NCBI GenBank assembly: GCA_002898575.1
Contig: BEHT01000026.1
Location: forward strand, 1-50,909
Reading direction: 5' to 3'
Source of the DNA: a bacterium HR17
GTDB taxonomy: Bacteria > Armatimonadota > Fervidibacteria > Fervidibacterales > Fervidibacteraceae
DNA: 50,909 nucleotides
Every line of letters begins with the position of its first letter. The stretch's first letter is position 1. This document shows, piece after piece, positions 38,784 to 47,258 of this stretch. Under the pieces are notes generated by a model, which had not been told where the DNA came from, ran no database searches, and saw only the letters and a list, made by a program, of their open reading frames with translations. The position numbers were made by a program, and so were the translations under genes.

Positions 38784-39102
38784 GTGCTTTGTTGAATTTT
38801 CCTTCCGGCAGTGCCTCGGAGGGCGCGTCTCTGACGCGCCAATTTCTTTGCGGCGGCTCAGGAGAGCCACCCTCCGAGAGCCACCTTGTCGTTCGGAGGG
38901 CGCGTCTCCCAACGCACCGCCATGCGGCGGCTCAGGAGAGCCACCCTCCGAGAGCCACCTTGTCGTTCGGAGGGCGCGTCTCCCAACGCACCGCCATGCG
39001 GCGGCTCAGGAGAGCCGCCCTCCGAGAGCCACCTTGTCGTTCGGAGGGTGCGTCTCTGACGCGCCGATTTCTTTGCAGCGGCTCAGGAGAGCCGCCCTCC
39101 GA
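38784..39102 (+). repeat. Structured tandem repeat array 2 (four units, with 32-nt end sequence)
   Basis: A 32-nt end sequence (38784-38815, beginning GTGCTTTGTTGAATTTTCC) leads into four units starting at 38816, 38893, 38967 and 39041, spaced 77, 74 and 74 bp. Each unit runs from TCGGAGGG to CCCTCCGA (the fourth ends 39095-39102). Inside are hairpin A (GCGCGTC/GACGCGC, or GCGTCTC-CCAACGCA variants) and hairpin B (GGCGGCTC/GAGCC(G/A)CC). There are no spacers of unrelated sequence. The region 39103-39215 up to the next ATG holds no other feature I can see. The open frames across the array have no ribosome site and merely reflect the repeat. Confidence 0.95.
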
Positions 39103-41706: not shown

Positions 41707-41719
41707 GAAAAGAGACACA

Positions 41720-41754
41720 GCAGGGGCACAGTTGGCTGTGCCCCTGCCGTTTTG
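41720..41754 (+). terminator. Intrinsic terminator, possibly bidirectional
   Basis: A perfect 12-bp stem, GCAGGGGCACAG with CTGTGCCCCTGC, has a TTGG loop (41720-41747). CGTTTTG follows on the plus strand, and TGTGTCTCTTTTCG on the minus strand. It stands 14 bp after the last stop of the decayed plus-strand gene and about 70 bp past the minus-strand selenoprotein gene, so it may serve both. Confidence 0.7.
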
Positions 41755-41817
41755 TGCGTCGTTACCGTGCGGGGGACACCATTTGCCTTCGGCGAACCGC
41801 CGAAGAGGTCATACCCC

Positions 41818-42036
41818 TCAGGTGCCACCGTAACCGATAGTGACCTTGCCGTCTTCCACAATGACAGGCACTTTGCGCTGCCCGCCAGTGAGTTGGAGCA
41901 TTTCTTGCAAGAACTGCGGGTTGGTCTGGGCGTTGCGGTAGTCCACTTTGTAGCCTTGCTTGGCGTAGTCCTCACGGGCCGCCCGCGTGTAGGGTCAGCC
42001 GTCTTTGCCGTAAATGATCACGACCTTCTCCGCCAT
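41818..42036 (-). CDS. UXX-star type selenoprotein, glutaredoxin-like (Sec at codon 14, TGA 41997-41995)
   Basis: 72 aa if the in-frame TGA at 41997-41995 is read as selenocysteine. The ATG at 42036 has AAGGGGG upstream. Translation is MAEKVVIIYGKDG-U-PYTRAARED..., followed by a beta-alpha strand with KVPVIVEDGKVTIGYGG and a TGA stop. That is a thioredoxin/glutaredoxin fold: first strand, U-P-Y-T in place of glutaredoxin's C-P-Y-C, helix, and cis-Pro in KVPVIV. It matches what I know of the small UXX-star (seleno)protein families. Protein-like sequence runs unbroken on both sides of the TGA, arguing against a pseudogene. A possible SECIS hairpin lies just downstream of the TGA. Sec synthesis genes (selA, selB, selC, selD) must be elsewhere. 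Probable redox role; substrate unknown. Confidence 0.9.
41973..41989 (-). promoter_or_regulatory. Candidate bacterial SECIS hairpin
   Basis: From position 9 after the first base of the TGA, CACG-(C)-GG pairs with CC-CGTG: six base pairs with one bulged C and a GCGG loop at positions 16-19. Bacterial SECIS elements lie within the coding region just after the UGA and have a G early in the loop, so position and loop fit loosely. Folding was judged by eye. Confidence 0.45.
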
Positions 42037-46000: not shown

Positions 46001-46510
46001 ATTCGGTGCAACGGCGTGTCGTTTCGGCTGGTCAAAGGGGCGCAAACGCCACCTTTGTGCGTGGCGCTGTCCAGCGATGTGACGAGCCATGAAGTTGCGC
46101 CCGATTTAGTCGTCGTGCCTGTCAATGCAAAAACGCCGGCGATTTACCTTTTGATGACGACGACGGCGCGCCCCGTGCGCACCGAGGATTTGTATCAGCG
46201 GGGACGCACCGACCCGCGCAAAGTCGCTACGCTCGTCGTCCGCTATGCGGACGGTTCGGAAGAGCGCACCGATTTGCTTTTCCGACGCCATGTGACGGAA
46301 TGGAACGACCGATTGGGTTGCAGCCACGCCCGCATCGCGTGGCAGGGCAAAACGCAGCGCGGCTATTTGCTGACGCTTTGCGCTTACGAGTGGCACAACC
46401 CCAAACCCGATGTGCCGATTGCGTCCGTGCTGCTTCTTTCCGCCAACAGCGCGGTGCAACCCGTCATCGTCAGCATGACAATAGCTCAAAACGAAACGCC
46501 TCTACGATGA
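43004..46510 (+). CDS. Large secreted GH20-like beta-N-acetylhexosaminidase with carbohydrate-binding domains
   Basis: 1168 aa with a signal peptide (WRLVALLVLFCTVATA); AAGGGGG precedes the ATG. Residues 19-170 look like a carbohydrate-binding beta-sandwich (NLLTNGGLDRDADQDGVADG). Residues about 180-385 resemble a CBM9-like domain (IRLDGNLSEAAWRQTEPL). Residues about 450-620 look like the GH20 accessory domain. A TIM barrel follows from about 625, with the catalytic pair Asp772-Glu773 in FHIGHDEITF, the GH20 hallmark (substrate-assisted N-acetyl-sugar hydrolysis). A C-terminal domain of about 250 residues is unassigned. Sequence around the barrel is diverged, so the sugar may not be GlcNAc. 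Repeat array 3 follows directly. Confidence 0.88.
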   Translation: MWRLVALLVLFCTVATALEPNLLTNGGLDRDADQDGVADGWVAEVHRAEGGEGRFALDPHDKVQGTTSQHIVHTSAKGWVRVSQDGIPAKPNARYLFRCWVKANCRFLLVVYAFKADGSYTTFVVAEGQGTGDTWRLFDGVVLTPSDARSFKISLVTDSEGEARFDGAELIALERPPYAFVPILSVPIRLDGNLSEAAWRQTEPLTPFLELGSGKVAEPATVAKIAATPTHLLIAFRCDEPSPTAMRLRTPDSDEPAYMDDCVEVYLDPQHTHDGFWQFVVTPKGNKWAQQVAPSRWATVWWLLPRPTQRLITNGWQAATTIGNDFWAAEIAIPFALFGVRPTTGTTIGINLCRSRKTTRIVQNSAFVYLDEKSFQRPEKFPHIVFVAASEGAAFGKPLSSTGTEPLSVGKAKRLLSHAIRRFGESADRQGRDGDALLAKLVPKPQRAVVYRGEVAISRTVAIALPQNASALERTAAELLTDTLRRMGLQVTLTHRFTSANRSAVTSAAQRPTAQTASLVVLTTFDRLPVEWRTSLPTSKLRTFFAQRGDEAYALFVGTGNTQRGARVAGIAQQGTRKAKVLCAPLVLVGASARGVFNGVQTLRQLVWANGYGRDLTLPICEIWDYPDLKLRGWHFVAPLRDELPFAERLLDWLALMKFNTLVIEVDDRFPYERHPDIAHPQALTKSQWRRFLAQARRLGFDVIPQVQTFGHFGYVLNKPAYRHLSEHTAPHPRWGFYAYCPSDPATYKLVFDLFDEVLATFQPKWFHIGHDEITFVPIGVCNRCKATGKTAWQLLADDIRKLYDYLKAKGVERVAMWCDQLEPDRTGGYAPYFTHFAADLIPKDIVQFCWHYDARPTFPWLTRLRDKGFEVVACGWYHAQNVWRFAAESFDRKTLGYCGTTWYGVTGFATAVDLMTAVVLGAQNAWSVDNPPINSAPHPTNIAQDLWALVGERPRWGKGTTQSACVDLTPFVNTSLTQWGKEGVVPDRCAALEQMSDTIRCNGVSFRLVKGAQTPPLCVALSSDVTSHEVAPDLVVVPVNAKTPAIYLLMTTTARPVRTEDLYQRGRTDPRKVATLVVRYADGSEERTDLLFRRHVTEWNDRLGCSHARIAWQGKTQRGYLLTLCAYEWHNPKPDVPIASVLLLSANSAVQPVIVSMTIAQNETPLR

Positions 46511-46519
46511 ACGACGCCA

Positions 46520-47258
46520 AACAGCGGCGCATCGGGAGATGCGCCCTCCGAACGACACACTCTCGGAGCAAACTCTCGGAGGGCGGCTCTCCTGAGCCGC
46601 CGAAGTAAAAGCGGTGCATCGGGAGATGCACCCTCCGAACGACACACTCTCGGAGGGCGGCTCTCCTGAGCCGCCGAAGTAAAAGCGGTGCATCAGGAGA
46701 TGCACCCTCCGAACGACACACTCTCGGAGGGCGGCTCTCCTGAGCCGCCGAAGTAAAAGCGGTGCATCAGGAGATGCACCCTCCGAACGACACACTCTCG
46801 GAGGGCGGCTCTCCTGAGCCGCCGAAGTAAAAGCGGTGCATCAGGAGATGCACCCTCCGAACGACACACTCTCGGAGGGCGGCTCTCTTGAGCCGCCGAA
46901 GTAAAAGCGGTGCATCGGGAGATGCACCCTCCGAACGACACACTCTCGGAGGGCGGCTCTCTTGAGCCGCCGAAGTAAAAGCGGTGCATCGGGAGATGCA
47001 CCCTCCGAACGACACACTCTCGGAGGGCGGCTCTCTTGAGCCGCCGAAGTAAAAGCGGTGCATCGGGAGATGCACCCTCCGAACGACACACTCTCGGAGG
47101 GCGGCTCTCTTGAGCCGCCGAAGTAAAAGCGGTGCATCGGGAGATGCACCCTCCGAACGACACACTCTCGGAGGGCGGCTCTCTTGAGCCGCCGAAAATC
47201 GGCGCGTTAGAAAACACGCCCTCCGAGGCACTGCCGAAAGGAAAATTCAACAAAGCAC
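46520..47258 (-). repeat. Structured tandem repeat array 3 (about nine 74-bp units, opposite orientation, with 32-nt end sequence)
   Basis: The 74-bp period is strict: the string CGGAGGGCGGCTCT recurs nine times between 46576 and 47182. Units pair TCGGAGGG with CCCTCCGA, enclosing GGCGGCTC/GAGCCGCC and GGTGCATC/GATGCACC hairpins. The first copy has GGCGCATC with GATGCGCC, and the last has GGCGCGTT with AACACGCC. The 32-nt end sequence at 47227-47258 matches the one at 38784-38815 in 31 of 32 positions, as its reverse complement. The array fills the space between the GH20-like and heparinase-like genes. Long open frames here on the minus strand exist only because 74 is not a multiple of three, so the same unit is read in all frames. 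Confidence 0.96.

Follow-up and report, generated by a model that had tools for sequence, protein, structure and literature searches.

Bacterium HR17, a member of the Armatimonadota, very probably encodes a UXX-star family 1 protein of 75 residues that is a double selenoprotein, with selenocysteine (Sec) at residues 14 and 73. The gene lies in the window, that is, the whole 50,909-nucleotide stretch of DNA that was analyzed, and its features are listed below.

41809-42036, minus strand: complete gene of the probable UXX-star family 1 selenoprotein, 75 codons plus a TGA stop; two TGA codons inside the frame are read as Sec
41995-41997, minus strand: first probable Sec codon TGA (U14), in motif U-P-Y-T at the site of the glutaredoxin nucleophilic Cys; U or C in homologs, SelA/SelB/SelC/SelD present
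41962-41983, minus strand: likely SECIS 1, a small hairpin with loop GTGA, offsets 14-35 from the first base of the first TGA, within the coding region
41818-41820, minus strand: second probable Sec codon TGA (U73); U or C in homologs, gain in NF041114 score, two Sec in a published review
41809-41811, minus strand: true stop TGA, two codons past U73
41787-41805, minus strand: likely SECIS 2, hairpin CTTCGGCG-GTT-CGCCGAAG, past the stop codon, with a long stem and a short loop
41717-41750, minus strand: probable intrinsic terminator with a 15-bp stem and a T-rich tail, marking the transcript end, from a terminator scan of the region

Gene structure and family membership

On the minus strand, 41818-42036 reads MAEKVVIIYGKDG-TGA-PYTRAARED...KVTIGYGGT-TGA. 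In the sequence-only reading the TGA at 41997-41995 was taken as a Sec codon at a glutaredoxin redox site and the TGA at 41820-41818 as the final stop of a 72-residue protein. The first proposal agrees with the homologs and the family match described below. The second is superseded, as the TGA at 41820-41818 is very probably a second Sec codon: past it the frame continues as Gly-Val-TGA, so that the gene spans 42036-41809 and the 75-residue protein, with Sec14 and Sec73, ends in ...GGT-U-GV. The gene stands alone, with no close neighbor on the same strand, and its flanks are intact, comprising a Shine-Dalgarno-like GGGGG and a downstream terminator. The region has two terminator-like sites where 0.5 would be expected; one of them is the other's stem read on the opposite strand. 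The stem at 41717-41750 is a strong bidirectional terminator-like structure with the UXX-star gene on one side and a convergent S9 peptidase gene on the other. Elsewhere in the window, the intergenic segments 38790-39080 and 46470-47250 share words in their six-frame translations (SFGG, RRLRRAALRE, SEGGSLEPPK), which suggests a DNA repeat family of the HR17 genome.

The 72-residue readthrough protein scores 109.8 bits against NF041114 (gluta_UXX_star_1, "UXX-star selenoprotein family 1"; cut-off 72), in line with the sequence-only reading of a glutaredoxin-like selenoprotein. Addition of U73-G74 (74 residues) raises the score to 116.3 bits, a gain of 6.5 over the version ending at T72, and a translated search of the genome matched positions 1-70 of the model with the two TGA codons inside the match. 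The protein also scores 100.9 bits against the wider UXX-star model NF041212 (cut-off 66) and 42.1 bits against the Pfam glutaredoxin family PF00462. UXX-star families 2 and 3 (NF041211, NF047338) and the HUGP/GUXX-star fusion (NF045501) belong to the same wider family and likewise have U adjoining strand 1, but the HR17 protein reaches only about 54-61 bits against their models, far under the cut-offs of 97-325. With family 1 it shares a score well above the cut-off, the length, the U-P-Y-T motif and the two Sec residues, having a TGA in a UxxT motif after strand 1 and a second, C-terminal Sec. There is no substantive difference from the family; at Sec14 this Armatimonadota protein has G-U-P in place of the commoner T-U-P.

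The homolog set comprised 34 sequences: the gene in the window, those of three relatives in its taxonomic family, and 30 more, which come from several phyla. The set ranges over the Armatimonadota, Deltaproteobacteria, Methylomirabilota/NC10, Acidobacteria, Planctomycetota and Latescibacterota, and on public contigs the closest relatives carry the label Armatimonadetes. Position 14 is U in 31/34 and Cys in 3/34, and position 73 is U in 33/34 and Cys in 1/34, with no other residue at either site. No frame decay follows position 14. The outcome named in the sequence-only reading as refuting it, homologs with neither Cys nor Sec at this site and a decaying frame, was not seen. The C-termini share the form GG-[TSA]-U/C-x-[VI]-stop (one sequence has GS for GG), the stop being TAA or TAG in 20 of the 34 and TGA in the other 14. 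T17 of the U-P-Y-T motif is invariant in the 30 aligned members.

Predicted fold and possible chemistry

AlphaFold2 predicts a glutaredoxin-like fold lacking the last helix (pLDDT 81.7, pTM 0.65), in the order beta-alpha-beta-alpha-beta-beta, with strands at 5-10, 30-35, 58-61 and 64-67 and helices at 15-26 and 40-50. The tail that carries U73 is predicted at low confidence, about 60 in the last block. The top PDB matches of the model are glutaredoxins, including 7c10, a dithiol cGrx1 (Foldseek TM 0.74); cGrx1 is a selenoprotein glutaredoxin of clostridia with a UxxC motif. The two proteins share the glutaredoxin fold, but cGrx1 has one Sec and a second motif Cys, whereas the UXX-star protein has Thr at that position and a second Sec near the C-terminus. 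U14 is placed just before helix 1, at the catalytic Cys site of glutaredoxins, and the UXX-star protein keeps the invariant glutaredoxin segment V-P-V-I. Two features of the dithiol glutaredoxins (PF00462) are absent: the second Cys of CxxC or UxxC, replaced in U-P-Y-T, and the C-terminal helix, the model ending after strand 64-67 and a short tail.

By analogy with the glutaredoxin Cys, Sec14, where helix 1 begins, would act as the nucleophile in catalysis. Since the position normally held by a second Cys is occupied by Thr, U73 would be the resolving residue, if one exists within the protein. The partner of Sec14 would then most likely be the C-terminal Sec73, the two forming a diselenide redox pair or, failing that, a bidentate soft-metal site. 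We regard this Sec14-Sec73 pairing as a tentative proposal with somewhat less than even chances.

The main alternative, possible though on balance unlikely, is that the two Sec residues serve as ligands of a soft metal or metalloid rather than in thiol redox catalysis. A 2026 review suggests that the Sec residues of UXX-star proteins may be metal ligands or may bind other substrates (PMC13188914), and the loss of the second CxxC Cys to Thr is consistent with such a role. Retention of the glutaredoxin fold and of V-P-V-I argues against it, and no conserved metal-resistance neighborhood was seen. Neighbors across the loci include a peptidase, a TIM-barrel protein, a nucleoside diphosphate kinase, a protoglobin/PsiE protein, DNA repair proteins and a single zinc-type ABC permease. 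In several deltaproteobacterial loci the UXX-star gene is followed by ORFs of about 138-140 and 295-297 amino acids, which at one locus (L064) are the nucleoside diphosphate kinase and the protoglobin/PsiE protein. This arrangement differs from that in the other phyla, and the gene neighborhoods gave no functional lead.

Hairpins downstream of the two TGA codons

Each of the two Sec codons would have a separate hairpin, a short way downstream, to direct insertion. In the members with U73, the second TGA is followed by a hairpin whose stem is 5-10 bp and whose short loop usually contains G or GT. The loop lies mostly at +16 to +28 from this TGA and the hairpin is largely beyond the stop codon; protein coding therefore cannot account for it. 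Adding up the longest stems at +9 to +44 in 29 loci gives 213 bp, versus 134 bp in shuffled sequences (z 12.9), and two control regions gave z values of 2.7 and -2.0. Between the arms, 5.97 of 6 positions pair with the partner from the same locus versus 3.15 with a partner from another locus; since the arms were picked for pairing, the shuffle comparison is the fair test. Stem sequences vary while pairing is kept, with 23 distinct 5′ arms among the 29 loci. Spacing varies as well, so that MAFFT could not put these hairpins in register, and the stems were compared by script. The hairpin is absent after position 73 in L052, the only Cys73 homolog, which has Cys at both sites. Taken together, the sequence comparisons give strong covariation support for a hairpin at the second site. 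Bacterial SECIS elements of the E. coli fdhF type are hairpins just 3′ of the UGA with a GGU-type loop. The present hairpins resemble these in position and loop, and the string GCAGGTCTGC is present in some homologs (L046, L054); the U73 hairpin differs in being noncoding, with its place after the stop codon.

The candidate element after the first TGA is weaker, having comparative support alone, because folding energy gives no signal: no excess was found after this TGA (mean z about 0), and folding of the window sequence itself favors another structure. Offsets 14 and 35, both third codon positions, gave the top covariation of 909 column pairs (z 5.1, a score that kinship among the sequences can inflate). 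This pair had been chosen from predicted folds ahead of the scan. Its pair types are GC (14), CG (6), TA (4) and GT (1), and a second wobble pair at offsets 17 and 32 also covaries. In the putative hairpin as a whole, 91.1% of cells are paired versus 82.9% in shuffled sequences. Codons 20-22 are near-fixed at synonymous sites in the U14 members (GCC 27/29, CGT 26/29, GAG 29/29), and at the CGT codon the three Cys14 members have CGC, CGC and AGA. The sequence-based covariation support for this first hairpin is moderate.

The second hairpin bears on whether the protein contains a single Sec, with codon 14 read as Sec and the TGA at 41820-41818 as a true stop after 72 residues. This is very unlikely, even though the 72-residue version, at 109.8 bits, is still above the NF041114 cut-off. 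Position 73 is only ever U or Cys across the 34 homologs and is always followed by one residue, V or I and a stop, and the NF041114 model itself spans position 73 and gains 6.5 bits from U73-G74. The covarying hairpin, lost in the Cys73 member, and the two Sec given for NF041114 in the review (PMC13188914) also speak against a single Sec.

Selenocysteine machinery and the coding frame

A selenocysteine system was predicted for the organism from the gene alone, and the genome supplies it. The 3.15-Mb draft assembly (96% complete, 2.6% contamination) contains SelA (581 bits), SelB (409.5 bits), SelD (385 bits) and a tRNA-Sec with anticodon TCA (UCA; 78.3 bits), all that bacterial selenoprotein synthesis requires. 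The tRNA has a long acceptor domain, a 6-bp D stem and a long variable arm, and the machinery genes sit on contigs other than that of the UXX-star gene. SelA was not found in two relatives of the same genus that have the UXX-star gene, their assemblies being only 61-63% complete. In the proposed mechanism, SelB and Sec-tRNA(UCA) would read TGA as Sec at codons 14 and 73, and the third TGA would terminate the protein.

Several other loci of this genome touch on selenocysteine. The selD gene (L015, G000:C2:7112-8038) has an in-frame TGA in KGG-U-ACK, and SelD is likely a selenoprotein itself. A second glutaredoxin-like gene (L020, G000:C21:34626-34811, minus strand), reading MAKQVVIYTAKG-U-GAC-AQEKAWL... 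with the TGA in a UxxC motif, probably encodes another selenoprotein of HR17; two ORFs of G055 (L035 and L041) resemble it, both with U-P-x-C. The genome also has an extra tRNA-Cys (L007, G000:C22:52032-52122, minus strand; anticodon GCA) with discriminator T, a long variable arm and a tRNA-Sec-like D arm, which scores 55.9 in the Rfam tRNA-Sec model (cut-off 47); an ordinary 73-nt tRNA-Cys is on contig C47. The extra tRNA resembles the selC* type of tRNA-Cys, which has been reported in Firmicutes, Thermodesulfobacteria, Nitrospirae and Proteobacteria (PMC7609411). The genome bearing it yielded no second SelB over the cut-off.

The stretch between the two TGA codons is, by its pattern of substitution, a living coding frame under purifying selection. 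Its 58 codons scored alone give 86.5 bits against NF041114. In comparison with the three relatives of the same taxonomic family there are 27-34 third-position differences and 7-10 second-position differences, with dN of 0.18-0.20 and dS of 2.0-2.8 in the pairs for which dS could be computed. The score of these codons and their coding-like evolution lead us to reject a chance origin of the frame. A decayed glutaredoxin pseudogene, which would explain why two TGAs break the frame under table 11 as nonsense mutations, is extremely improbable: it is in effect refuted by the conservation of both TGAs, which recur in many phyla; the codons that separate them have a dN that is a small fraction of dS, and the flanks are intact. 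Genome-wide reassignment of TGA as an ordinary sense codon, for example for Trp or Gly, has a negligible probability despite the UCA-anticodon tRNA, which is a canonical tRNA-Sec; it is refuted by the TGA stops of neighboring genes (4/5 large nearby genes checked), and homologs carry Cys at the Sec sites, never Trp or Gly.

Distribution and implications

In the 2026 review NF041114 is the "Distant Grx-like protein 1" with motif UxxT, and a "2" stands against it in a column that we read as Sec residues per protein, positions not being given (PMC13188914). Both the family and the presence of two Sec in it are therefore already catalogued, and the gene described here adds an Armatimonadota member. 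The sequence-only reading held that gene calling misses this gene; ordinary ORF calling is indeed broken at both TGAs, but the family is covered by a curated NCBI equivalog model and by the review. Our literature search found no mention of Armatimonadota or Fervidibacter together with selenocysteine. Among 61 Armatimonadota genomes tested, SelA was over the cut-off in 32 and NF041114 in four, confined to this genus and one sister genus. Use of Sec is common in the phylum, whereas the NF041114 protein is not.

A lineage of Armatimonadota would thus use selenocysteine twice in one tiny redox protein, in a gene that ordinary ORF calling splits at both TGAs. The fuller picture, which we hold only provisionally, is of a diselenide or bidentate soft-metal site joining helix 1 to the C-terminal tail, with the third-last residue as the resolving residue, and of a 228-nt gene served by two SECIS elements, one of them beyond the stop, in which a TGA nine bases downstream of a Sec codon stays a stop. 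The pattern of U14 and U73, together with the Cys/Cys homolog that lacks the hairpin, offers a natural test of SECIS function, and the gene, being so compact, may help to show how SelB discriminates between UGA for Sec and UGA for stop when the two are nine bases apart.
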